A program made the translations under genes and the position numbers. Of a DNA stretch of 34,348 nucleotides, positions 120 to 17,394 are shown piece by piece (within the stretch, counting starts at the first letter, position 1; the number at the start of each line of letters is the position of its first letter). The notes under the pieces were generated by a model. The model saw only the letters and a program-made list of their open reading frames with translations, did no database searches and was not told where the DNA came from. The stretch covers positions 236 through 34,583 of the forward strand of contig MEPR01000065.1 of the NCBI GenBank assembly GCA_001769835.1. Reading direction: 5' to 3'. Origin of the DNA: Bdellovibrionales bacterium GWB1_55_8 (lineage in GTDB: Bacteria; Bdellovibrionota; UBA1018).

Positions 120-334
120 AACTCGTTGAAGTCACTGGCACGACCGGTGTTGTTGAGATCTCCGGTGTCCGTCGCACGACGGATCTTTCCCTGGTGGCGC
201 CCGTTGAGCCGGGGCAATATGTGATCGTCCACGCCGGATTTGCGATTGCGGTGACGGATGAAGAGGAAGCCAGAAAGTCGATCGAGCTTTTCGAGGAGAT
301 GGCCCGTGGGCTTGAGATCGAGGGAGAGAAATGA
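98..334 (+). CDS. hypC: HypC hydrogenase maturation chaperone
   Basis: A 78-residue protein that begins MCLAIPMK, the hallmark of HypC/HupF. Cys2 is the residue that contacts iron and HypD. HypC carries the Fe(CN)2CO unit with HypD and delivers it to the large-subunit precursor of a [NiFe] hydrogenase in the cytoplasm. The start is supported by an AAGGGAG ribosome site about 8 bases upstream of ATG 98 and by the invariant Cys2. The gene overlaps hypF upstream and shares an ATGA with hypD downstream, so it is mid-operon. Confidence 0.97.
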   Translation: MCLAIPMKLVEVTGTTGVVEISGVRRTTDLSLVAPVEPGQYVIVHAGFAIAVTDEEEARKSIELFEEMARGLEIEGEK

Positions 335-1422
335 AGTATATCGAGGAATTCAGGAATCACGCCGCGGCACAGGCGCTGGTTCGGGAGATTCATCGGATTT
401 CCGGCGGCAGAAGAATTCGAATCATGGAGGTATGTGGCGGACATACCATGGCGATTTTCAAGTACGGTTTACCCGGGCTTCTTCCCGCAAATATTGAACT
501 CATCAGCGGCCCCGGGTGTCCGGTCTGCGTCACATCGAACTCCTTCATCGATCATGCGATCGAGCTGGCAAAGGACAGGGGCACTCTCATCGCGACCTTC
601 GGCGATCTCATCAGGGTGCCCGGTTCAAGTTCAAGTCTGCAGAAAGAACGCGGGGAAGGGGCGGATGTCAGAATCTGTTACTCGCCCCTCGATGCCCTTG
701 AACTTGCCAAACAACATCCTGACCGGAATGTCGTGTTTCTAGGCGTTGGTTTTGAAACCACTGCGCCTACCGCTGCTGCCACGATTCATCGCGCCGCAGA
801 GCAAGGGCGCGCGAATTTCTCCATGCTGACTGCCTTCAAAACCATGCCCAATGCCATGAAGGCGTTGCTCGATGGCGGAGAAGTGGCGCTCGATGCTTTC
901 CTGTGCCCTGGGCACGTCTCGGTGATTACTGGAACTGGAATTTATGAGTTCATCGCTCGAGAGTATCGAACTCCATGCGTCGTATCGGGGTTTGAACCGC
1001 TGGACCTTCTGCAGTCCATCCTGAAAATCATCGAACAGATCGCAGCGGGTCTCGCTAAGGTAGAGAATCAATACACGCGCGCCGCGACTTTGCCGGGGAA
1101 TCCTGCGGCTCAGAAACTGTTGAAAGAGGTTTTCCATGAATCTGATGCCGATTGGCGGGGCATAGGCACGATTCCGCGCAGCGGTCTTGAAATATCGGAC
1201 GAGTATGCCCGGTTTGACGCGCGAAAGGTTTTTCCCGTGAAACTGAAGCCATCGCGTGAAAACCCGGCATGCATCTGCGGTTCGATCATGAGAGGGGCCA
1301 AGCGCCCGTTGGATTGCCCGTTATTCTCCAAAGTCTGTACGCCGGAATCGCCGAAGGGCGCGTGCATGGTCAGCGACGAGGGGAGTTGCGCCACATATTA
1401 CAAATACCGGAGGACTCCATGA
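331..1422 (+). CDS. hypD: HypD, Fe(CN)2CO assembly iron-sulfur protein
   Basis: A 363-residue protein of normal HypD length. It carries the family signatures CGGHT (about residue 35), GPGCPVCVT (about residue 61) and a C-terminal cysteine cluster (CICG, DCPLF, VCTP, ACMV and SCATYY) that includes the ligands of the [4Fe-4S] cluster. HypD is the scaffold, with HypC, on which the iron receives its CN and CO ligands. It overlaps hypC by 4 bases at ATGA and hypE by 4 bases at ATGA. All catalytic cysteines expected of the family are present, so the protein looks functional. Confidence 0.97.
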   Translation: MKYIEEFRNHAAAQALVREIHRISGGRRIRIMEVCGGHTMAIFKYGLPGLLPANIELISGPGCPVCVTSNSFIDHAIELAKDRGTLIATFGDLIRVPGSSSSLQKERGEGADVRICYSPLDALELAKQHPDRNVVFLGVGFETTAPTAAATIHRAAEQGRANFSMLTAFKTMPNAMKALLDGGEVALDAFLCPGHVSVITGTGIYEFIAREYRTPCVVSGFEPLDLLQSILKIIEQIAAGLAKVENQYTRAATLPGNPAAQKLLKEVFHESDADWRGIGTIPRSGLEISDEYARFDARKVFPVKLKPSRENPACICGSIMRGAKRPLDCPLFSKVCTPESPKGACMVSDEGSCATYYKYRRTP

Positions 1423-2453
1423 GTCAAAGCAGCTCTGGCGGGGGAGTGATCACGCTGGCGCACGGAAACGGAGGCAAGTTCACTCACGAACTCGTTGAAA
1501 GAATTTTTGTCCCTCGATTTGCCTCTTCTGAGCTCAGTGAACTTGCTGATTCAGCGATTCTCTCTTTGCCTGAAACCGCTTCTGGAAAAGTTGTTTTCAC
1601 CACAGACTCACATGTGGTGACTCCGCTCTTCTTTCCGGGGGGTGATATCGGCAAACTCGCCGTTTGCGGAACGCTGAACGACCTTGCGGTGATGGGCGCA
1701 AAGCCTCTCTTCCTGAGCTGCGGCTGGATTATCGAGGAAGGCTTCGATATCGAGAAGCTTGAGAAAATAGCAGACTCGATGGCCGACGCTGCGCGAGCGC
1801 AGGGAGTACGAGTGGTGACCGGCGATACGAAAGTGGTCGAGCGGGGCGCGGCCGACGGCGTTTATCTGAATACCTCCGGAATCGGTGTTCTTCTTCCTGG
1901 CGCCCCCTTGGGAGCGCGATCCATCCAGGCGGGGGACGCGGTGATCGTCAGCGGGTCCATGGGAGACCATGGAATCGCGATTTATGCCGGTCGCGAAGGA
2001 ATATCCCTGCGGACTGAGCTCAAGAGTGACTGCGCGGCAGTGTTTCCTCTGGTGGAACTCGCCATGAAAATTTGCCCCGATATCCGGGTGATGCGGGATC
2101 CGACTCGGGGCGGGCTTGCGACTACCTTGAATGAATTCGTTCGTGGTACGCGGCTGGGTATTCAGGTGGATGAGAGCCAGATCCCCGTGCGGCCCGAGGT
2201 AAAGGGCGTCTGCGAGCTGCTGGGTTTCGATCCGCTCTATGTGGCCAATGAAGGAAAACTTGTCCTGGTTGTTCCGGCAGAGCGCGCAACCGCGGTCGTG
2301 TCGGCGATGAAAGCTCATGAACTTGGAAGGGCTGCATGCACCATCGGGCACGTGACGGAGCGCGCACCGGGACGCGTGTTCCTTCGAACACTCGTGGGGG
2401 GAGATCGGATTCTCGACATGCTGGCGGGTGACATGCTCCCGCGCATTTGTTGA
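1419..2453 (+). CDS. hypE: HypE, thiocyanate-forming dehydratase
   Basis: A 344-residue PurM/AIR-synthase-like ATPase ending in MLPRIC. The terminal Cys344 is the residue that HypF carbamoylates and HypE dehydrates to a thiocyanate, later donated to HypD iron. The N-terminal ITLAHGNGG motif and the internal DTHVV-like stretch (here TDSHVVTPLFFPGGDIGK) also fit HypE. The reading frame is open upstream to 1269, but that extension is antisense to no known domain and runs inside hypD. The ATG at 1419, sharing ATGA with the hypD stop, gives the usual family length and N-terminus. Confidence 0.97.
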   Translation: MSQSSSGGGVITLAHGNGGKFTHELVERIFVPRFASSELSELADSAILSLPETASGKVVFTTDSHVVTPLFFPGGDIGKLAVCGTLNDLAVMGAKPLFLSCGWIIEEGFDIEKLEKIADSMADAARAQGVRVVTGDTKVVERGAADGVYLNTSGIGVLLPGAPLGARSIQAGDAVIVSGSMGDHGIAIYAGREGISLRTELKSDCAAVFPLVELAMKICPDIRVMRDPTRGGLATTLNEFVRGTRLGIQVDESQIPVRPEVKGVCELLGFDPLYVANEGKLVLVVPAERATAVVSAMKAHELGRAACTIGHVTERAPGRVFLRTLVGGDRILDMLAGDMLPRIC

Positions 2454-2462
2454 AAGGCACGC

Positions 2463-2813
2463 ATGCACGAACATGCCATTGCAGCAAAAATAGTGGCGAT
2501 AGTGGAGGAAGAGATCGCGGCAACCGATCTTTCCCGCAAAGTGCGACGTGTCGTGATTGAAGCCGGACGGATGCACGCGCTCGTTCCCGATTCACTCCGA
2601 TTTCATTTTGAAGTGATAATAAAAGACAAGCCACGCCTTGAATCAGCGGAATTGGTGTTGCGAAGCAAGCCGATCACAGCCGAATGCGGCACCTGTCGCA
2701 AGGTGATCGTGCTGGACGATCCCGTATTCGTCTGCCACGAATGTCATGGCGCCGTACGGCAGCTCTCCGGAAACGAGCTTCTGGTGGACAGTATCGAGCT
2801 TGATGAAAATTGA
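2463..2813 (+). CDS. hypA: HypA/HybF nickel metallochaperone
   Basis: A 116-residue protein starting MHEHAI; the N-terminal Met-His-Glu forms the nickel site of HypA. A zinc-ribbon with two CxxC motifs (CGTC at about 76-79 and CHEC at about 94-97) is present, as in all HypA/HybF proteins. HypA works with HypB to insert nickel into the hydrogenase large subunit after the iron ligands are in place. It starts 9 bases after hypE and is the last hyp gene on this strand. The partner hypB lies on the other strand about 1.2 kb away. Confidence 0.95.
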   Translation: MHEHAIAAKIVAIVEEEIAATDLSRKVRRVVIEAGRMHALVPDSLRFHFEVIIKDKPRLESAELVLRSKPITAECGTCRKVIVLDDPVFVCHECHGAVRQLSGNELLVDSIELDEN

Positions 2814-2837
2814 GCTGGCCGCTCGAATAGGGTATTC

Positions 2838-2868
2838 TGGGTCTGATCAGGGAAAGGATCAGACCAGA
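2838..2868 (+). promoter_or_regulatory. Hairpin in the pfkA leader
   Basis: A perfect 9-bp inverted repeat, GGTCTGATC (2840-2848) and GATCAGACC (2857-2865), encloses the 8-base loop AGGGAAAG. With a single bulged G it extends to about 12 pairs. The loop holds the only Shine-Dalgarno-like bases (AGGGAAAGG) upstream of the pfkA ATG at 2870. In RNA it would be a stem-loop presenting the ribosome site; in DNA it could be an operator. It is not a terminator, because no T-run follows. Confidence 0.5.
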
Positions 2869-2869
2869 A

Positions 2870-3988
2870 ATGCCAAATCCAAATAAGCAGGGCAGAAAAA
2901 TCGCGATTAATACCGGCGGGGGGGATGCCCCGGGTCTGAATGCGGTCATACGCGCCGCAGTGCTGTCGGCAGAGCGCCGAGGCTGGGAATGCTACGGGAT
3001 TCGCGATGGCTTCAATGGCATTTTGATGCCCGATGAGTTTCCCGATGGAAGCGGTGTTTACCGATTGACCAGGAAAACCGTCCACGGCATCACGCCACTC
3101 GGTGGAACTATCCTGGGTACGACGAACCGCGGGAATCCGCTGAAATTTCCCGTCAAACAAAGCGATGGGAGTTTTGTGGAAGTGGATCGCTCGGACGAGA
3201 TCATTGCGGGCCTCAAAGCACGCGGAATTGATACTCTGATCGCCATAGGCGGGGATGGCTCGCTTTCTATCGCCAATGTCCTGGCGCAAAAAGGTTTGAA
3301 AGTCGTGGGAGTTCCCAAAACCATCGACAATGACCTCGACAAGACGGTGATCACTTTCGGCTTCGATACGGCTCTGTCCTTTGCAACGGAGTCCCTGGAT
3401 CGCCTGCATACGACCGCCGAGTCCCATCACAGGATCATGGTCGTCGAGGTCATGGGACGTTATGCCGGATGGATTGCGTTGAATTCCGGTATTTCTGGCT
3501 CCTCGGACGCTATTCTGATCCCGGAGATTCCATACGATATCGGAAAGGTCGCTGAAGCTCTTCGCAGGCGTCGTGCGCAGGGCAGGCGTTCTTCCATTGT
3601 CGTGGTGGCGGAGGGCGCGAAACCCAAGGGCGGAACGACTACCGTCATCGAGAAAGAAGTCGGGCGAGCCGAACGCCTGGGAGGTATCGGGGAGCGAGTC
3701 GGAAAAGAACTGCAGGAGTTGACCGGCCAGGAAACGCGTGTCGTCGTGCTCGGGCACCTGCTTCGGGGCGGGACACCCACCACTTTCGATCGTCTGATCG
3801 CGCTCCGCTTCGGTGCGGCGGCCGTTCGCGCGCTGGAGGAAGGCCATTCAGGGATCATGGTGGCGCTGGATCCTCCTTCGGTGCGTTATGTGCCCCTCGA
3901 GGACGCCACCCGCCGGATGAAGACGGTGCCTACCGATTGTGACACGGTGCTGACCGCGCGGGATCTCGGGATTTCCTTTGGAGATTAG
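2870..3988 (+). CDS. pfkA: 6-phosphofructokinase (mixed ATP/PPi-type residues)
   Basis: A 372-residue member of the PfkA family, which phosphorylates fructose 6-phosphate in glycolysis. Seen in the sequence: the N-terminal GGGDAPGLNAVIR phosphate loop, GGDGS at 127-131, PKTIDND at 149-155 with catalytic Asp153, and MGRYAGW at about 195-201. The GGDGS glycine (position 104 in E. coli numbering) is the ATP-type residue. The lysine in PKTIDND (position 124) is the residue seen in pyrophosphate-dependent enzymes. This combination is typical of group III PFKs, some of which use ATP, so the donor cannot be set from sequence alone. It lies 56 bases after hypA behind a hairpin, and its 3' end overlaps hypB by 4 bases. 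Confidence 0.92.
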   Translation: MPNPNKQGRKIAINTGGGDAPGLNAVIRAAVLSAERRGWECYGIRDGFNGILMPDEFPDGSGVYRLTRKTVHGITPLGGTILGTTNRGNPLKFPVKQSDGSFVEVDRSDEIIAGLKARGIDTLIAIGGDGSLSIANVLAQKGLKVVGVPKTIDNDLDKTVITFGFDTALSFATESLDRLHTTAESHHRIMVVEVMGRYAGWIALNSGISGSSDAILIPEIPYDIGKVAEALRRRRAQGRRSSIVVVAEGAKPKGGTTTVIEKEVGRAERLGGIGERVGKELQELTGQETRVVVLGHLLRGGTPTTFDRLIALRFGAAAVRALEEGHSGIMVALDPPSVRYVPLEDATRRMKTVPTDCDTVLTARDLGISFGD

Positions 3989-4665
3989 ACGGTCGTTTTC
4001 CGGTGGAGTTCAACGATTTGCGCCTTGAGTTCATTCAGGCCGACTCCTTTTTTAGCGGAAACTTCCAAAATCTTCAGCTCGCCATTGATTTGCCGCATAT
4101 TCCGTCGAATCAGCGGGACGTCGGCTTCGGTGGCTTCAATCAGGTCCGTCTTGCTGATCAGCGCAAGGTCGGCACTTCTGAACATGAGCGGGTACTTCAG
4201 CGGTTTGTCTTCTCCCTCCGTGACGCTCAGCAGGGTCACGTTCAGGTCAGAGCCGGTATCGAATTCCGCGGGACACACGAGATTGCCGACATTTTCAAGC
4301 AGGACGATATCCAGCGGGTGTTCTTCGAGTGCCTGAAGCGCTGTCATGACCACAGGTGCGGCCAGATGGCAGTCTCCGCCGAAAAACTCCGTGTTGATTT
4401 GCGCGATCGGAATCCCCAGGTGCTGAAGTCGCATGGCATCCCGAGCGGTCGAGATATCGCCTTCGATGACCCCCACGCGAAGGCCTGACTCAAGCAGGAG
4501 TGGAATCAGCTTTTCGAGAAGCAGGGTCTTCCCTGAACCGGGGGAACTCATGAAGTTCACCATGCACTGGTTTCGGGACCGGAGTTTGCGACGGATCGCC
4601 AGCGCCGCGTTGTCGTTTTCCTCGAGAATCTTCCGAACGACCTTGATTTCCATGGCCATGAACAT
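3985..4665 (-). CDS. hypB: HypB nickel-insertion GTPase
   Basis: A SIMIBI-class GTPase that hydrolyses GTP to drive nickel transfer to the hydrogenase precursor together with HypA. The P-loop SSPGSGKT lies near the N-terminus. A GGDCHLAAP motif, with the Cys-His metal site at the dimer interface, GDISTARDA, ENVGNLVCPAEFD and SKTDL follow in the HypB order. The frame is open to 4812, but that part has no HypB similarity. ATG 4665, 4659 and 4653 are all possible starts, and none has a strong ribosome site. The form with a short N-terminus has no CxxCGC or His-rich nickel-storage segment. It is transcribed against the rest of the hyp cluster. Confidence 0.94.
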   Translation of the reverse strand: MFMAMEIKVVRKILEENDNAALAIRRKLRSRNQCMVNFMSSPGSGKTLLLEKLIPLLLESGLRVGVIEGDISTARDAMRLQHLGIPIAQINTEFFGGDCHLAAPVVMTALQALEEHPLDIVLLENVGNLVCPAEFDTGSDLNVTLLSVTEGEDKPLKYPLMFRSADLALISKTDLIEATEADVPLIRRNMRQINGELKILEVSAKKGVGLNELKAQIVELHRKTTV

Positions 4666-4780
4666 AGCGGTGGCCTGGCGTTGAAGTACAGGGCTTTTTC
4701 GCTGGGGATTATCAGGCGGCTTGAAAATAACGAACCTTTGCAGCATTCTGTCGCCGATAGCAGATAAGGGAGAATGGACC

Positions 4781-5869
4781 ATGGAATTCCTGCAATATAA
4801 TCTCTTCGGCAACCCCGTTGGAAGCTGGGCTGCCGCTGTCCTGATTTTCGGCCTGGGCTACGTGTTTCTCAAACTCCTGAGAAAATTTTCCGTTCGCAGA
4901 ATAGGGTCTATTGCTGCAAGCACCGATACGCTGATTGATGATCTGCTGGTCGAGCTGCTTCAGCGAACCCGACCGTTCTTTCTGTTTTCGATTTCGGTAT
5001 ATGGCGGTAGCCTGGCGCTCAGGTTCGTCGAACCGGTACATGACCTGATCGCGAAAGCGGTCATGCTTCTCACTCTCGTGCAGGTGGGAATCTGGGGAAC
5101 GGCCGTGATCGCCTTCTGGATCGAGCGGTATCTCAAGAAACGTGCTGCGACCGACTCCGCGATAGCGACCACCATGGGCCTTCTCAGCTTTATGGCGAGA
5201 CTGTCTTTGTTCATTGTCCTTTTCCTGCTGGCGCTGAACAATCTCGGAATCAACATCACGGCACTCGTGGCAGGTCTCGGTGTCGGTGGCATCGCGATCG
5301 CTCTCGCGGTGCAGAATATTCTCGGCGATCTGTTTGCATCCGCCACCATCGTCCTCGACAAGCCCTTCATCGTAGGCGATTTCATTATCGTTGATCAGTT
5401 CATGGGCACTATTGAGCACATTGGACTGAAGACTACCCGGATTCGGAGCCTTTCAGGGGAGCAGCTCATCTTCCCGAATTCAAATCTTCTTCAAAGCCGA
5501 ATCCGGAATTTCAAGAGGATGCAGGAGCGCAGGGTTGTTTTCCTGCTCGGACTGATTTACCAGACTTCGCCGGAAATCATGAAAAAGGTTCCGCAGATGA
5601 TCCGGGAAGTCGTCGAGAAGCACGAGAAGATCCGTTTCGAGCGTTGTCATTTCAAAGGCTTCGGGCCTTCCTCGTTGGATGTGGAAACCGTGTATTGGGT
5701 GACCGACCCCGACTACATGATCTATATGGACATTCAGCAGGCAATCAATCTCGAGCTCCTGGAGCGTTTTGAGGTGGCCGGAATCGAATTCGCTTATCCA
5801 ACGCAAACCGTTCTGCTTCAGCCCGCGCAGAGCGAGCCGCCTGGCGGCATTCGCGCTGCGCAGGGTTAG
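4781..5869 (+). CDS. MscS-family mechanosensitive channel
   Basis: A 362-residue inner-membrane channel that would open on membrane tension to release solutes. Predicted membrane segments lie at about 17-33, 66-82, 93-113, 132-153 and 157-185. The last is the Gly/Ala-rich pore helix of MscS (ALVAGLGVGGIAIALAVQN). It is followed by the beta domain (LDKPFIVGDFI, GTIEHIGLKTTRIR, PNSNLLQS) and a C-terminal alpha/beta domain. The start at ATG 4781 is preferred over an in-frame upstream codon at 4721, because AAGGGA sits 9 bases before it and the extra residues are unremarkable. It is divergent from hypB with about 115 bases between. Confidence 0.9.
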   Translation: MEFLQYNLFGNPVGSWAAAVLIFGLGYVFLKLLRKFSVRRIGSIAASTDTLIDDLLVELLQRTRPFFLFSISVYGGSLALRFVEPVHDLIAKAVMLLTLVQVGIWGTAVIAFWIERYLKKRAATDSAIATTMGLLSFMARLSLFIVLFLLALNNLGINITALVAGLGVGGIAIALAVQNILGDLFASATIVLDKPFIVGDFIIVDQFMGTIEHIGLKTTRIRSLSGEQLIFPNSNLLQSRIRNFKRMQERRVVFLLGLIYQTSPEIMKKVPQMIREVVEKHEKIRFERCHFKGFGPSSLDVETVYWVTDPDYMIYMDIQQAINLELLERFEVAGIEFAYPTQTVLLQPAQSEPPGGIRAAQG

Positions 5870-5926
5870 AGTTTGTGCGACTTGGCTCGACCGTTGCACG
5901 ATTTTCCTTAAAAGTAAGGAGATCAG

Positions 5927-6424
5927 ATGCAGCGCAAAAGCACCCTGCCTCGCACATGGATTGTCTGTCCTAATCTTTGGGGTGCTCGTTTGTTTTATTA
6001 CGGAGGCCCTGATCAGACCATCGAGGACCGCGACAGAGTACGATTTCTCAAGGAATTTGCGCGACCAAAAGTCAAAACCAAGCTGGAGGATTTCAGGGAC
6101 GACGATGACGCCGCCGATATCTCCGAGCCGGTGGAAGATCCCGCGCTCGAGCTTCAGGTCGCTCAGAGTTTCATGAAGTATCTGGCGCGTGAGCTCGACG
6201 AGGCGAAGCGGACAGGGCGATACGATGCATTGATTCTTTGCGCCGAAAAACACCTGCTTCAGATTTTTCAGGAACAACTGCAGCAGAAGGCCGCTGGCAA
6301 GGCCGTGATCGGAACGATCCCGCTCGATCTTTATGAGGTGAATGAGACGGATCTGACCCCCTACGTGAAAGATATCCTTCAGCCCGTGGGAACCCGCGAG
6401 TACGGATCCAAAGCGGCTGGATAA
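5927..6424 (+). CDS. Host_attach / baeRF-like protein
   Basis: A 165-residue cytoplasmic protein resembling the family named 'protein required for attachment to host cells' (bacterial eRF1-like). It has the N-terminal TWIVCPNLWGARLFYY stretch, a variable charged middle, then a helix with LELQVAQSFMKYLARELDEA. A Rossmann-like part follows, YDALILCAEKHLLQIFQEQL, and it ends LTPYVKDIL, matching the family order. The biochemical role of the family is not settled. A strong AAGGAG lies 5 bases before the ATG. Its 3' end overlaps the BON-protein gene by 46 bases. Confidence 0.62.
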   Translation: MQRKSTLPRTWIVCPNLWGARLFYYGGPDQTIEDRDRVRFLKEFARPKVKTKLEDFRDDDDAADISEPVEDPALELQVAQSFMKYLARELDEAKRTGRYDALILCAEKHLLQIFQEQLQQKAAGKAVIGTIPLDLYEVNETDLTPYVKDILQPVGTREYGSKAAG

Positions 6425-7983
6425 CCCGAGTAGAAAAACGCACCTGTCCCAGCAGGAAAGGGCGAAGATGCCGATTCCACCTGAATGCGATTTTCCACGC
6501 GTGCAGCGCCACCCAGAAACGCGTTTTGAGTGGCTGTCAGATGCTGGGGCCAGGTGGTGACCTTACCTGTGAGCGAGGCAACTCCGTTGTGAACGGATAC
6601 CTCTATTTGCGGCGACCCTTTTTGGCCAGGGGTGGCGGTGGGGAGGCTACTGTCCGCTCTGATGAGTCTCCGGACATTTCGTGCTATCTCAAGATCAGTC
6701 AGGGCAAGCGCACTTCGGTCGACCCGGATTCTGTTGTCGATGGATCGGATTCCTTTCGTCCGTGCGGCCGCATCCCAGGCCAGCCACTTTTCAAACGGTG
6801 AGGACACCTTTCCGTTCAATATCGCATGACCCCGTTCCATGCTGAGTGCGATATCATCCGCTATATCCGGTCCTGTCAGTTCAAGAATCGTTTTGAAATT
6901 GCTCCGGATCACGTGATCGGCCACGCGGTCGAGATTCCGAACGACAATTTTGTTCCTGACCCCGGAGATGCCCGGCACATTTCGCGCGGCCTCTTCCGCC
7001 GCCTGTTTGGTGATCACATTCGCGACCGTTCCGCTCAAAGTGATTACGCCTTTGCGCGCCTTGACAGTCATTGCTTTTTTGGCACGCTCGTCGATCTGCG
7101 GATCTTCCGCGAGCGACTCACGCACGTCCGCCTCAAGCTCGCCATCCGAGCGCGAGGGAGGAACTCCGCCTGCCGGGCTCTGGGGTTCCACAGTCACGCC
7201 ACTGACATCCACTTTTCTCACCCCGTCCACCCAAGCGGCTGCCATTCCTGCTTGCGAACGGGCCAGAACGCTGTTCACCGAGCCCTGCAGGCGTGCCTCG
7301 CCAGATCTGACCTGGACCTTGATCTTGTCAGGATGAAGTCGCGAATTGCCCTGCAGCTGGTTCGAGATATCCCGGGCGATGGTCCTGTCGGAAGGTTGCC
7401 GGTTAAGTGTCACGGCGATGTTGTTTTTCACATCTCTGACCCCGTGCACACCCTTGGCGATCCACTCAGCCAGCTCTCGCTCTCGCTGGGAGACCACGCT
7501 TCCCAGTAGGGTAACAACCCCGTTTTCCGCGGTGATCTTTAGCCCGTAATCACCTGCCGCCGGGTCGAGTCGAACGGCCGACCGCACGCGGTCCCGCAGC
7601 TCCCGGTTCCCGACGGGGGTGGGAAGCACTTGGAGGTGGTCCAGGACGTCCCGAACCCCACGAATAGATCCTGCAATGTGAATTGCACGATCTCTTGCCC
7701 GAAGCGTGTCCACTTTACCACTCAGAGTCACAGTTCCCTTGCGTACTGATGTCTTCACTTCGTCGGCAGTGAAGAAGCGGTCACCGAAGAGTCCCGCGGA
7801 AAGGGTCCGCTGAATTTCCTGATCAGGAACGGCTTTCCGGAACGCGATGGCTCCCTCGGCCGACCCCGACAGCGTGGCGAGTGCAAGCCAGAGGAATGTG
7901 CTCACGATTCTGAACGGGAATTGGAAAGTCACAATTCCGTCATTTAGCAACCGGGGTACCAAAGGCTGGTTGCCGGAAGTCAT
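6379..7983 (-). CDS. Secreted protein with six BON domains
   Basis: About 534 residues with an N-terminal hydrophobic signal (FRIVSTFLWLALATLSGSAEGA) followed by six BON repeats at about 55-119, 126-192, 200-265, 281-348, 355-421 and 431-502. Each shows the pattern of an amphipathic helix, G-x-V-x-L-x-G-x-V, a second helix, then G-V-x-x-V-x-N-x-I. BON domains occur in OsmY-like periplasmic stress proteins and are thought to bind membranes or peptidoglycan. Six in a row is more than the one to three usual for that group. ATG 7983 is used here; a GTG at 7932 would give a more typical signal peptide. The frame is open to 8091 without added similarity. Confidence 0.85.
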   Translation of the reverse strand: MTSGNQPLVPRLLNDGIVTFQFPFRIVSTFLWLALATLSGSAEGAIAFRKAVPDQEIQRTLSAGLFGDRFFTADEVKTSVRKGTVTLSGKVDTLRARDRAIHIAGSIRGVRDVLDHLQVLPTPVGNRELRDRVRSAVRLDPAAGDYGLKITAENGVVTLLGSVVSQRERELAEWIAKGVHGVRDVKNNIAVTLNRQPSDRTIARDISNQLQGNSRLHPDKIKVQVRSGEARLQGSVNSVLARSQAGMAAAWVDGVRKVDVSGVTVEPQSPAGGVPPSRSDGELEADVRESLAEDPQIDERAKKAMTVKARKGVITLSGTVANVITKQAAEEAARNVPGISGVRNKIVVRNLDRVADHVIRSNFKTILELTGPDIADDIALSMERGHAILNGKVSSPFEKWLAWDAAARTKGIRSIDNRIRVDRSALALTDLEIARNVRRLIRADSSLPTATPGQKGSPQIEVSVHNGVASLTGKVTTWPQHLTATQNAFLGGAARVENRIQVESASSPFPAGTGAFFYSGYPAALDPYSRVPTG

Positions 7984-12207: not shown

Positions 12208-12981
12208 GTGTCGATATTAATCACGGGTGCATCTAGCGGGATTGGTGCAGCGTGCGCTCGGGCTTTGGCTCCTTTGTGTGCGAGTCGCAACTGGCGGCTT
12301 ATTCTCTTGGCCCGGAGGCTCGATCGTCTGCAGGCGCTCGCGACAGAGTTGTCGGCTCAAAACGGAGTCACTTCCCATTGTTTTGAGTCGGACATCAGGG
12401 ACCGGCTTTCTCTCGAAACCCTTTTCTCCCGGTCAGAGGAAATCTTTTCAGATACTAAAGTACTTGTGAACAGCGCTGGTTTAGCCAAGGGGCTCGACCC
12501 CATCCAACGTGGCAAGGTCGACGATTGGGATGAGATGATCGATACCAATCTCAAGGGATTGCTTTACGTGACCAAAAGCCTATTGCCACATCTTTTAAGA
12601 AATTCAGCGTCTGGAGCTGTTTGTCACATCGTTAATATCGGTTCCTCCGCCGGGCATTGGGTTTATCGCAAAGGAAATATTTATTGCGCGACAAAGGCTG
12701 CTGTTCACGCGTTTTCTGAGTCGCTCCGTTTGGATCTTCATGGCTCGGGAATCCGTGTGACCGAAATCGTCCCGGGTATTGTTAAAACGGAAGCTTCCAA
12801 GGTTCGATTCGGGGATGAAGAGAGAGCTGAGGCGACCTATGCTGGAATGGTTCCGCTGAGCGCGCAGGATGTCGCGGATGCGGTGCTTTGGTCAGTTTCC
12901 CGTCCTGCACATGTAAATGTTCAAGAGCTTGTGATCTTTCCCACTGCACAGTCTGCCGTCGGCATGGTCAGCCGGATTTGA
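12208..12981 (+). CDS. Short-chain dehydrogenase/reductase (YdfG-like)
   Basis: A 257-residue classical SDR using NAD(P). The cofactor motif TGASSGIG is at 6-13, NSAG at 88-91, structural Asn114, and the catalytic Ser146/147, Tyr159 and Lys163 are all present (YCATK). LARR after the second strand suggests NADP preference. The PGIVKTE stretch and overall length fit the YdfG/serine 3-dehydrogenase-like group more than FabG. The start is GTG 12208. It shares direction with the pilin gene and converges on the MBOAT gene with only 4 bases between. A link to the acyl-chain operon opposite is possible but not shown. Confidence 0.9.
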   Translation: MSILITGASSGIGAACARALAPLCASRNWRLILLARRLDRLQALATELSAQNGVTSHCFESDIRDRLSLETLFSRSEEIFSDTKVLVNSAGLAKGLDPIQRGKVDDWDEMIDTNLKGLLYVTKSLLPHLLRNSASGAVCHIVNIGSSAGHWVYRKGNIYCATKAAVHAFSESLRLDLHGSGIRVTEIVPGIVKTEASKVRFGDEERAEATYAGMVPLSAQDVADAVLWSVSRPAHVNVQELVIFPTAQSAVGMVSRI

Positions 12982-12985
12982 GGCA

Positions 12986-14452
12986 TCAGGGGATCACTAA
13001 GCTTCGCATGAAGTCGAAATAACGTGTCCAGGATCCCGCGGAAATGATCTGGGACACGCGCCAGACTGCGGAAAACAGGATCAGGTATCCCAGGTTCATC
13101 AGACCGGTGCGCGCCCAGTGTCTGGAAATCCGAGTTTCACCTCGGCGCTTGAGAACTGCTGACGCAGCCAGGATGATGCCCAATATGAAATAATAACCGG
13201 TTTTCGGCGTGTAGATTTCAACTGCAGCTTCAGGTCCGACGTTGAGCCCTATGGGCAGAAAACCGCGGAAAACGTGGTAAATTGAACCGAAGAAAGCCAC
13301 TCCCAGGCTCACTGCAAGAAAAAGTCGCGCTTTGTACCACGGAATCCAGCGCAAAAACGAAAAAAGTGGATCAACTGCAACGCGCATCAGCAGCTGATTG
13401 TAATAGTAAAACCATCTCCCGAAAAACTGAGCGAAACTTCTGGCGGAGAAGGGCTGATAGACATTTCGGAACAGATCAAAACCGCACATGCGGGCCATGG
13501 CTACTGAAATGCCATAGCCGACGACCTGCCATTGCACCAAATGCACAACGAAAACGTAAACGGTCGCAAACCAGCGGAAAACGAACTCAGCTGGTTCGTT
13601 GGAATTGCCTGCGGGCCTGAACTGGCGTATCGCCTGGATTGCCGCGCCCGCAGTGGACGGCGCTTCCAGCCACGAGGAAAGATTTCTCATGAGGATCATG
13701 ATCAGAAGGCTGGTGGCGAGGAGTTGCAGCCCCTTGAGGCGGACCATGGCGAATTCGGTGTCATCACACGCTTCTCGCTCTTGAAGCTGAAATGGGCTCC
13801 CCGGAATGGGAGCAGGGGAACTGCCGCTGTTCCAGAACGGAAGGATTGCGCTCAGTCGAACCCATCGAGAACCTCCGCGCATTTTACCCTCATCAGCCAG
13901 GGCAAGGACGATAAACCAGAACCAATGCAAAGCCGCATAGAATGCCAGCCAGAGAGGAACGGCCAGGGGGTTGTTTCCCAGGGCTCGGATGGAGAAATAT
14001 GCGCCGCTAAATAATCCAGTGACAGTCCAGAAGGAGTGAGTTCGGATTTTACTTGAACGCTTAGCAAGCCAAAATAGGGGCGGAAGGAAGCAGAACGCGA
14101 TGGAAACTGCGCCAATCCGCAATGGCCACGGGAATGTGCTCTCGATCCGGAACCCGTGATCCTGAAGAAACGGAAGTATCGCGTCCCACCCCATGGTCGG
14201 ACCGACGACCCAACCTGCTGCGGTCATTAGCGTCAGCAGCTGCCATCGCAGCTTGGGCATAAACGTGATCACGGCAATGCCGGAGCCCCAGATCCACCAC
14301 CGCATGTCGCCCGATAGCCATAGCCCCACTGCAAAAAGCGCCGCCATCGCCGCTTTCCCGGTGAGTGATTGAGCGAAATAGGTCAACACTGGGGCCCGGA
14401 GGAACTTGCTCGGATTCCTCCATCCGATACTAGCCGAGTTTTCCACGTACAA
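12986..14452 (-). CDS. MBOAT-like membrane acyltransferase
   Basis: About 488 residues, strongly hydrophobic with roughly ten membrane segments. Residues 331-346 read VYQPFSARSFAQFFGRW, resembling the MBOAT signature (P-x-x-A-x-S-x-x-x-F-W-x-R-W). His393 in GSIYHVFRG sits where the catalytic MBOAT histidine occurs (WHG). MBOAT enzymes such as DltB and AlgI move acyl groups across or at the membrane, and DltB takes its group from a carrier protein. The start is TTG 14452 or GTG 14446; both lie inside the end of the acyl carrier gene. It is the last gene of the KS-ACP operon. The family call is moderate because similarity is limited to these motifs. Confidence 0.65.
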   Translation of the reverse strand: MYVENSASIGWRNPSKFLRAPVLTYFAQSLTGKAAMAALFAVGLWLSGDMRWWIWGSGIAVITFMPKLRWQLLTLMTAAGWVVGPTMGWDAILPFLQDHGFRIESTFPWPLRIGAVSIAFCFLPPLFWLAKRSSKIRTHSFWTVTGLFSGAYFSIRALGNNPLAVPLWLAFYAALHWFWFIVLALADEGKMRGGSRWVRLSAILPFWNSGSSPAPIPGSPFQLQEREACDDTEFAMVRLKGLQLLATSLLIMILMRNLSSWLEAPSTAGAAIQAIRQFRPAGNSNEPAEFVFRWFATVYVFVVHLVQWQVVGYGISVAMARMCGFDLFRNVYQPFSARSFAQFFGRWFYYYNQLLMRVAVDPLFSFLRWIPWYKARLFLAVSLGVAFFGSIYHVFRGFLPIGLNVGPEAAVEIYTPKTGYYFILGIILAASAVLKRRGETRISRHWARTGLMNLGYLILFSAVWRVSQIISAGSWTRYFDFMRSLVIP

Positions 14453-14693
14453 GTTCCGTCACCTCTGACACGGTCGCCTGGCCAGGATTCTTTCCGAGTA
14501 CTTCGATAAAATCCGATCGCTTCAGCTTGATCTGAAACTGCCTTTCAAGAAGAAAGATGAGTTCCATCAGATCAATGGAGTCGAGTCCCAGGTGGTCGCG
14601 CAGCACCTGGCTTTTCTGAACTTGCGAAACGTGAATCGCTGCAGTCTCGGCGACCGCTCTGCGTACGCTCAATTCCAGATCCGAGTCATTCAT
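14430..14693 (-). CDS. Acyl carrier protein
   Basis: An 87-residue ACP. The phosphopantetheine attachment serine is in LGLDSIDLMELIF, and the surrounding four-helix pattern and length are normal. A phosphopantetheinyl transferase encoded elsewhere would be needed to activate it. It overlaps the ketosynthase gene by 8 bases upstream and the MBOAT gene by about 23 bases downstream. It is therefore translationally tied to both and is likely their dedicated carrier rather than the housekeeping AcpP. Confidence 0.93.
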   Translation of the reverse strand: MNDSDLELSVRRAVAETAAIHVSQVQKSQVLRDHLGLDSIDLMELIFLLERQFQIKLKRSDFIEVLGKNPGQATVSEVTELVRGKLG

Positions 14694-15873
14694 CGAGACT
14701 ATCTCCTTTTTCCAAAACCATACACGCGTTCTGTCCGCCGAAGCCGAATGAATTCTTTAGGATATACCGGAGCGGCAGGTGGCGATTTTTCAAGACGTGA
14801 TTGAGCTTGCAGTCGCTGGCGACATCAACGAGGTTGAGTGTGGGGTGCAGCTTCTGCTGAGTCAAGCAAGAGACCACCGCAATGGTTTCCACCGCGCCAG
14901 AAGCCGCCAGTAAATGTCCTGTGAATGGTTTGGTGGCAAATACAGGAGTTTCGTGCGAGACGCCGTCCAGCAGCCGGCGAATGGCAGCTGCCTCGGCTGA
15001 ATCATTTTTCAGGGTTCCGGTTGCGTGAGCGTTGATAGCGGAAAGATCTTCCGGATTAATCCGCGCGTCTTTCAGGGCCGCATTCATTGCGCTTAAGGCG
15101 CCCGCACCATCGGGACAAGGATCGCTGACGTGATAGGCATCCAGGCTGCTTCCGAACCCGCAAATTCTCGCCAGTACAGGAGCATTCCGTGCTCGCGCCG
15201 AGCTTTCGCGTTCGAGGATCAGAAATCCCGCTCCTTCACCTAGGATCATTCCTGTCCGATTCCTGTCGAAGGGTCGGCATGCGGTTTCGGCCGCGCAGTT
15301 GGCGTCAGTATTCAAAGCTCCCATAAGTGCGTAGGTGAGGAGCCATTCCGGCGATACGCAAGAACTTGTTCCGCCCGCGATGGCGACATCGATTTCCCCA
15401 TCGGCCACGGCCCGGGCAGCTGTCCCGATTGCCACGGTGCTTGCCGTGCACGCCGCTGTGTATATCCATGGGGAAGCCTGAATTCCCGCTGCTTTTGAAA
15501 TCTGCTGAGCGCATTCATCAGGTCCGATCGTGATGAAGTTTGCCGAAACCATTTCTGGAAACGAAACGAAGTTATGCTTGAGCCCCAGGCTCAGGACAGT
15601 CACTTTCTCTCTCGGAACCCCGTTTTCTCCGAACGATTGCGCGATTGCTTCAGTTATGGCGCGAGCAGCGTAAGCCACTTTTCTATCGGGATACGTAAAA
15701 GGACCGAAGTTCCGAATCTCGGCAGCGGATTTTACGGGAAAACCCTTTGTATTGAACAAAGTGATCGGGTGGATGCCGGCTTTCGGGGCGAACAAGCTGT
15801 CGGCAAACTCATTCACGCAGTTGCCGATCGCGCTTACGATGCCCAGACCGGTTATGGCTACGCGTTGTCTCAT
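14686..15873 (-). CDS. Beta-ketoacyl synthase (FabF/KAS II-like), intact active site
   Basis: A 395-residue condensing enzyme with the full triad: Cys142 (TAACTASTVAIG), His283 (NAHATGTLKND) and His320 (KPFTGHLLAASGA), plus the family lysine at 315. It would extend an ACP-bound acyl chain by two carbons. The CTAS nucleophile context differs from the CSS/CAS of most FabF. ATG at 15873 shares ATGA with the preceding ketosynthase-like gene, and the ACP gene begins in its last codons. The pairing with an inactive homologue is like type II polyketide and aryl-polyene KS/CLF systems. Confidence 0.92.
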   Translation of the reverse strand: MRQRVAITGLGIVSAIGNCVNEFADSLFAPKAGIHPITLFNTKGFPVKSAAEIRNFGPFTYPDRKVAYAARAITEAIAQSFGENGVPREKVTVLSLGLKHNFVSFPEMVSANFITIGPDECAQQISKAAGIQASPWIYTAACTASTVAIGTAARAVADGEIDVAIAGGTSSCVSPEWLLTYALMGALNTDANCAAETACRPFDRNRTGMILGEGAGFLILERESSARARNAPVLARICGFGSSLDAYHVSDPCPDGAGALSAMNAALKDARINPEDLSAINAHATGTLKNDSAEAAAIRRLLDGVSHETPVFATKPFTGHLLAASGAVETIAVVSCLTQQKLHPTLNLVDVASDCKLNHVLKNRHLPLRYILKNSFGFGGQNACMVLEKGDSLDE

Positions 15874-16865
15874 CGGCGACTTACCTGAACGGCGAGTGCC
15901 CCGTCATGATCGATTCGGGTAAGGTGAATTTCTTTTGCCCCACTGTTTTTAAGTGAAAGGAGAATCGCCAGCGACGGTGTCACTGGACCTGCATCGGCAT
16001 TCAGTTCCGGTACAGATCCAAGTTCCCCGAAATTGGAATGCGGATGCCTTGTTCGGCGTAATGAAATCCGGGCAATACGTCCCGGAGCAGTGCCTTTTCT
16101 CAGTACCATACAGGTAGCTGTATCTACCGGCGTCCTGAGTTCAGAAGGATTCATTCGGGCGTTTTGCAGACGAGAAAGAGTGCTTCTCATTTCCGCAGTT
16201 GCGCAAAGTAGGGCGAACCGTACTTTTCCATCTTTAAGGTCACGCCAAGCCGCGCGGAGGACCTGAAACCACTGTGCGGCGCTCGGGCTCATGATGACGG
16301 ACGGACCTTGGATCCCAAGTGCTTTGGAAACGTGAAAAAGAGGTGAATCGATCGAGGCGAACAGAAAACGTGGATTTACCGATTCCGTAACCGCTTTCGC
16401 AAAATCTGCCCAGTAATTCGTTTCTAACTCGGAATCCTGTGTGTCGGATCCCCGTGTGAAGGAGCGGGCAGCCGGCAATGCGAATTCGCCAAATCCCGTT
16501 TGGTAGCCTGTCGTGACATAGATCCCCGTATCCGTTTTCAGGTCGGAGTCCGTTAAGCCCGCCTGCTTTACCGCTGCCAAAGCGGCCTGAGTCAAAAGGC
16601 GGTCTGGTTTGGCCATGATTTTCAGCTGTTTTGGTTCAACGGTCTCCTGTGTCAGTTCAGTGGTCTCTGCTTCAGTGCCTTCAGAAAGGACTAAGCCGGA
16701 ACCAACGCTCAAGGAAGTTGGCGCGGCGAAGTGGTATCCGTCCAGCTGCAGGTATTCCGAGGTTTCCATAATGGGATATTTCCGAGGAAGTTCGTCGACG
16801 TCAAGGAGATGCGGCTCAACCCCTGCATTCCGAAGCGATGTGGAAACGACGACGCGTTTGCGCAC
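15870..16865 (-). CDS. Inactive ketosynthase-like protein (chain-length-factor-like)
   Basis: A 331-residue protein with ketosynthase fold features: an RVVVSTS start, the DRLLTQAALAAVKQAGL helix, and GIQGPSVIMSPSAAQWF where active enzymes have STACxS. The nucleophile position is Ala196. The C-terminal half is short and lacks both catalytic histidine motifs, so it cannot condense. Such proteins act as partners (chain-length factors) of active ketosynthases. The start is GTG 16865, which retains the KS-like first strand; ATG 16769 is an alternative. It is first in a four-gene operon and overlaps the active ketosynthase gene by 4 bases. Confidence 0.75.
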   Translation of the reverse strand: MRKRVVVSTSLRNAGVEPHLLDVDELPRKYPIMETSEYLQLDGYHFAAPTSLSVGSGLVLSEGTEAETTELTQETVEPKQLKIMAKPDRLLTQAALAAVKQAGLTDSDLKTDTGIYVTTGYQTGFGEFALPAARSFTRGSDTQDSELETNYWADFAKAVTESVNPRFLFASIDSPLFHVSKALGIQGPSVIMSPSAAQWFQVLRAAWRDLKDGKVRFALLCATAEMRSTLSRLQNARMNPSELRTPVDTATCMVLRKGTAPGRIARISLRRTRHPHSNFGELGSVPELNADAGPVTPSLAILLSLKNSGAKEIHLTRIDHDGALAVQVSRR

Positions 16866-17394
16866 TGCTGCGTGGATTCAAGGGGTTTATTACCTTTTCA
16901 GCGGCCTTTGGCCTCTGCTTCATATGGATTCTTTCCTCGGGGTGATCGGGGCAAGGGGGGAACTCTGGCTGACGCGTGCGTTGAGCCTCTTGGTCGGGGC
17001 GTCAGGGCTTGCGATTCTACTTGCCGCGAGGAGCCGCCGAGTGACGCGAGAAATCGTGATATTCGGGGTTATTCTGGCCTTCGGGCTGACTTTCATTGAT
17101 GTTTACTACTCATCCCTGGGCACGATATCGGACGTTTATCTCGTGGATGCGGTTGTGCAGCTCGTGCTCGTCGGCATCTGGCTTGGCGACAGGAAGGCTC
17201 TGGTCGCCGTGACCGCGCGCTCCGCGCGCTCTGCCGGCCCTTCTGGTCAGCCTGGGCCTGAAGGGGTGCCTAGAGCGGCGAGAGCCGATAGGTTTCTTTC
17301 CAGGCTCGCTTTGGTCCGTCGCCGTAGGGCTCGTACCGGACCACATGATAAAAGAGAGACCCCTCCTCGCGAAAAAAAAGCCGAAGGTCGGTAA
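16840..17394 (+). CDS. Small four-helix membrane protein (conserved hypothetical)
   Basis: A membrane protein of about 184 residues. The core, from WIQGVYYLFSGLWPLLHM to VYLVDAVVQLVLVGIWLG, has four hydrophobic helices and resembles a widespread uncharacterised family of about 130 residues. The last 60 residues are Arg/Pro/Gly-rich, outside the normal family length, and run antisense over the end of the neighbouring gene for 125 bases. GTG 16840 is chosen because the core begins right after it, and there is no good ribosome site. Upstream open frame to 16609 is antisense to the ketosynthase-like gene and was excluded. Function unknown. Confidence 0.6.
   Translation: METTTRLRTAAWIQGVYYLFSGLWPLLHMDSFLGVIGARGELWLTRALSLLVGASGLAILLAARSRRVTREIVIFGVILAFGLTFIDVYYSSLGTISDVYLVDAVVQLVLVGIWLGDRKALVAVTARSARSAGPSGQPGPEGVPRAARADRFLSRLALVRRRRARTGPHDKRETPPREKKAEGR

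Follow-up and report, generated by a model that had tools for sequence, protein, structure and literature searches.

In this study, we found that the genome of an uncultured Bdellovibrio relative, Bdellovibrionales bacterium GWB1_55_8, contains an operon in which a ketosynthase (KS), an inactive KS homologue resembling a chain-length factor (CLF) and a dedicated ACP are combined with a divergent membrane protein assigned to the MBOAT superfamily. This operon probably represents a real but undescribed route for attaching a custom acyl chain to an envelope component. What is new is the joining of known kinds of system, KS-CLF systems and carrier-protein/MBOAT systems, and this joining is recurrent in one phylum. 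In the window (the whole stretch of 34,348 nucleotides that was analysed), the gene order is CLF-KS-ACP-MBOAT on the minus strand. As proposed in the initial annotation, the four reading frames span 12986-16865 and overlap by 4, 8 and 23 bp. The operon and the adjoining SDR gene are as follows:

12208-12981, plus strand, YdfG-type SDR (Pfam/NCBIfam)
12986-14452, minus strand, MBOAT-like membrane protein (open reading frame list)
14430-14693, minus strand, ACP (PF00550, E 8.6e-9; Ser in GLDSID; alignment)
14686-15873, minus strand, active FabF-like KS (Pfam, E 1.6e-29/1.9e-25; NCBIfam FabF, 320 bits, under the cut-off of 494)
15870-16865, minus strand, CLF-like inactive KS (PF00109, E 1e-5; alignment with relatives)

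The KS retains the active-site set C142, H283 and H320, together with K315, whereas the CLF has Ala at the position of the active-site Cys and, in the alignment, lacks the His motifs; both proteins are in these respects as first described. Around the active site the two align without gaps, with GIQ followed after 12 residues by Cys in the KS and by Ala in the CLF, and comparison of the CLF group with the KS by hhalign gave 90%, against 0.1% for the reversed control. The AlphaFold model of the CLF is of low confidence (pLDDT 48, pTM 0.56, low TM-scores), and its listed matches are all thiolase-fold enzymes (KS/thiolase). The CLF is of reduced (half) size for a KS homologue, and its translation probably starts at the ATG at 16769, giving 299 aa, rather than at the GTG at 16865, because its relatives begin there and a plus-strand frame overlaps the longer N-terminus. 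This frame (16835-17394, plus strand) encodes a small membrane protein and diverges from the operon. The ACP contains the serine motif DSID (within GLDSID). The presence of an intact KS and an adjacent inactive KS homologue supports the proposed KS/CLF pairing, and, as in their families, the two proteins may form a heterodimer. Elsewhere in the window, genes resembling those for the hydrogenase maturation proteins HypD, HypE, HypA and HypB, with a phosphofructokinase-like gene between them, were read from the sequence only (331-4812).

Half-size CLFs are known in ApeO-ApeC (PMC8358021), and aryl polyene (APE) systems likewise contain an active KS with a half-size inactive CLF, a dedicated ACP and a final membrane acylation. 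The operon could be a reduced aryl-polyene/flexirubin-like (type II PKS) locus, in which the KS-CLF pair makes a polyene or polyketide, the KR, DH and export genes are located elsewhere, with the MBOAT linking the pigment to a lipid. Besides the half-size CLF as in ApeC, this explanation is favoured by the membrane acyltransferases in which APE clusters likewise end, and by the KR, DH and ACP genes that accompany related KS-CLF pairs (L038, L039, L045 and L046). Nevertheless, we consider it unlikely. In the window gene list, neither a dehydratase nor a thioesterase was recognisable near the operon, nor was an AasS-like ligase, MMPL or LolA gene, and among the MBOAT-linked loci a dehydratase was seen only in L098. 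Moreover, the APE acyltransferases are of lysophospholipid and glycosyltransferase/acyltransferase kinds, whereas here an MBOAT takes the place of ApeD/ApeJ.

In the phylogenetic tree, the window KS groups with specialised KSs of Bacteriovoracia (support 99/97), and its nearest relatives, with 42-45% identity, are those of Bacteriovoracia KS-CLF clusters (L038 4273-12523, L039 3472-11576, L045 2953-10315 and L046 2128-10359). These clusters contain a Tes-near radical SAM enzyme with FabG, FabZ, CLF, KS, SDR and a long ACP but no MBOAT, whereas the window operon has no adjoining radical SAM gene. The radical SAM protein of L045 matches the tetraether synthase Tes (PDB 7tol, E 4e-72); a B12-type radical SAM protein is also found in L038, L039 and L046, and FabI in L045. 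These four clusters may represent a fatty-acid system devoted to the production of cross-linked lipids in bacteria. A genome from the same family as the window organism has a single operon for a UbiA-like prenyltransferase, a FabA-like dehydratase, a half-size CLF, an ACP and a KS (L040 7209-10646), and in Erwinia aphidicola an SDR, a long ACP, a CLF-like protein and a KS lie together with a small protein resembling a phosphopantetheinyl transferase (L055 5359-9380).

The membrane protein matches no Pfam or NCBIfam model; PF03062 gave no match at its gathering score, either in this protein or in ten membrane proteins that were scanned from related loci. Its MBOAT-like identity, which lies beyond Pfam detection, was upheld by profile-profile comparison and by a clade HMM. 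The alignment of the clade matched canonical MBOATs of the same phylum over the motif region (hhalign 96.6%, E 6.7e-10), with reversed and column-shuffled controls at most 0.2%. When the window protein was left out the value was 96.3%, and the window protein alone gave 24.7% (E 8e-4). The clade HMM retrieves canonical MBOATs with E about 1e-8 to 1e-11, and four of these places were detected by PF03062 as well. A phylum-wide protein search located relatives of the membrane protein in ten other genomes; an exact-pattern scan of GTDB genomes returned none, PDB searches with the protein and with the clade profile returned no significant relative, and the single-sequence AlphaFold model (pLDDT 43) had no fold match.

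Like the MBOAT superfamily (PF03062, AlgI/PatB/DltB type), the window protein has the P..A.S..DF..R motif region and, at a comparable distance downstream (45 residues, as against 40 in L071), a His. In contrast, RRWHISLS of the superfamily is replaced by GRWFYYYN, and there is no Pfam match. The position of the RRWH-motif His is occupied by F348 in the window, and none of the 12 clade members has a His there. The second His, of the GLWHG type, corresponds to H393 in FFGSIYH of the window protein and is kept in eight of the 12 members including the window, while in the other four it is missing at the aligned position. Taking these features together, we regard the membrane protein as a divergent polytopic protein of the MBOAT superfamily whose active site is partly degenerate, and it is likely to carry out MBOAT catalysis. 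The missing first His, along with the loss of the second in four members, nevertheless counts against a simple transfer model, in that the chemistry may differ from that of canonical MBOATs.

The same losses would be expected if the membrane protein were a catalytically dead MBOAT relative whose only role is to tether an ACP/KS complex to the membrane or to transport the product, and in L101 a canonical MBOAT in the same locus (PF03062, E 2.1e-18) could catalyse in its stead. However, the window protein and seven other members retain H393, the window locus contains no other acyltransferase, and the R..YYYN motif is conserved and the site therefore under constraint; a dead enzyme seems quite improbable to us. 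The canonical MBOAT of L101 lies beside an AMP-ligase-like gene (4263-7079), and the locus also has the divergent MBOAT, an SDR, a CLF, an ACP and a KS. In the genome of the window organism itself, a canonical MBOAT with a directly adjoining ACP gene was found (L077; C29, about 6831-7448).

The clade HMM detected 12 strong clade members in ten of 369 Bdellovibrionota genomes. Among the 58 genomes of the window's class, only that of the window organism carries the MBOAT-like gene, and with it the operon, which weighs against the mechanism favoured below. Within 5 kb of the clade genes, a FabF-type KS is found in 8/12 cases and an ACP in 10/12, although these counts refer to a larger interval than the control and a like-for-like comparison is given only at 1.5 kb. 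At +-1.5 kb, KS and ACP genes accompany 2/12 and 5/12 clade members, and 0/21 and 3/21 canonical MBOATs. The same parts thus recur beside clade MBOATs across the phylum, as the genome-neighbourhood check suggested at the outset shows. In L099, KASIII, CLF, KS, ACP and MBOAT are encoded in this order by overlapping genes on one strand, which is the order of the window behind a KASIII gene. L094 and L095, which are without a FabF-type KS, have a KASIII-like gene instead (read from the sequence, with no family search). Five loci, L092, L093, L100, L101 and L102, have an SDR and an AMP-ligase in addition; the SDR gene is inside the one-strand set in L102 and adjoins the MBOAT gene in L092, L100 and L101, overlapping it in L100 and L101. 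L092 also contains two TRAP-type binding proteins, one of them DctP by Pfam, and similar proteins were seen by eye in L093 and L101. Hence the description of four genes as the set holds for the core, which recurs elsewhere, but not for its limits, as related loci add KASIII or an AMP-ligase and SDRs. In L148, L149, L150 and L151, which encode more remote relatives of the membrane protein, desaturase-like genes lie nearby in place of KS genes, with radical-SAM-like genes in three of the four.

The KSs of the other MBOAT-linked loci share only 23-33% identity with the window KS and mostly fall in a separate KS clade, subject to a long-branch caveat in the tree. Judging from these identities and from the tree, at least two KS lineages have been combined with the MBOAT clade, and this makes the case for functional coupling stronger. 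On the other hand, a gene set put together from different KS lineages, at such identities and in another clade, also weighs against the mechanism favoured below.

Taken literally, the statement that the strand of the operon encodes no ketoreductase is correct, but it overlooked the convergent SDR gene on the opposite strand, whose end is 4 bp away from the stop codon of the MBOAT gene. The family of this SDR is found in 17 of 34 genomes of the window's relatives. A paralogue search and tree located a second copy in the window organism's own genome, between recA and alaS, at the same place as in G003 and G006. Since this second copy occupies the recA-alaS place of the relatives, the window SDR is an extra paralogue of the family-wide recA-SDR-alaS housekeeping SDR. 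Orthology with the SDRs of the other clusters was considered as well and rejected for this reason, as the window copy is paralogous to the housekeeping SDR of its own family. By its position, the window SDR is probably the dedicated ketoreductase of the operon. No starter-loading enzyme adjoins the operon in the window and no DltA-type ligase lies beside it; an AMP-ligase query against the organism's own genome gave a single weak match (E 3.5e-9), unlinked to the operon, and this too speaks against the mechanism favoured below.

The Dlt system (DltA-DltB-DltC) likewise contains a carrier protein and an MBOAT in one operon, and several of the related loci also have an AMP-ligase, one of them with full-length similarity to DltA models. 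Unlike the Dlt system, the window adds KS, CLF and SDR, that is, carbon-chain building. Furthermore, no DltD or DltX was seen, the MBOAT clade is without the first motif His and below Pfam detection, and the organism is not Gram-positive. The hand-over from ACP to MBOAT, with docking on the cytoplasmic face, is established for DltC/DltB (PMC11035591).

We favour, with some confidence, a mechanism in which a dedicated short acyl or polyketide chain is built on the ACP and then transferred by the MBOAT to an envelope acceptor. As expected from the families, the KS-CLF pair would condense malonyl-ACP and a starter on the ACP that the operon itself encodes, and the adjoining SDR would probably carry out the beta-keto reduction. 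The operon may have no part for dehydration and further reduction, or these steps may be lent by primary fatty acid synthesis. By analogy with DltC/DltB, the finished acyl-ACP would then dock on the divergent MBOAT from the cytoplasmic side, and the MBOAT would transfer the acyl group to an envelope lipid or polymer at a hydroxyl or an amine, much as D-Ala passes from DltC to DltB. In this scheme we infer the starter, the chain length, the acceptor and the transfer. The idea that an acyl chain is passed to a membrane acyltransferase had been put forward from the four genes, and it is supported because the gene set is conserved elsewhere; it is weakened by the degenerate MBOAT site, and the transfer itself is conjectural.

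Primary fatty acid synthesis may have a larger share if the operon is a specialised fatty-acid cassette, in which KS-CLF fixes the chain length, the primary FAS gives KR, DH and ER activities, and the membrane protein makes an ordinary lipid from the acyl-ACP. The organism's own genome has a normal fab cluster, FabG-ACP-FabF (L002), the window KS is FabF-like, and the more distant MBOAT-like relatives are near desaturase-like genes, all of which is compatible with such a cassette. Yet ordinary fatty acids need no dedicated ACP or CLF, and the SDR, KASIII and AMP-ligase genes of the related loci suggest special starters or incomplete reduction. We therefore find a fatty-acid cassette hardly probable and retain the dedicated chain with MBOAT transfer as the preferred mechanism.

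Assignment of conserved orthologues to a known pathway had been named as an outcome that would speak against novelty. No curated family combines these parts, and nothing relevant was found in the open-access literature on an MBOAT together with a ketosynthase. It is tempting, albeit tentative, to speculate that Bdellovibrionota have an undescribed class of envelope-modifying system, in which a KS-CLF chain made on a dedicated ACP is passed directly to a His-degenerate MBOAT, across or into the membrane, and in which the MBOAT became linked with distinct KS lineages on more than one occasion. As part of the same reading, and equally tentatively, the operon may couple chain building of the polyketide type with acyl export of the Dlt type. 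If true, a single operon would allow bacteria to build a custom acyl chain and attach it to the envelope, with neither a soluble thioesterase nor a CoA intermediate. The MBOAT clade, which existing family models do not detect, would then be a genome-mining handle for new lipids, and one that applies to a predatory, largely uncultured phylum.
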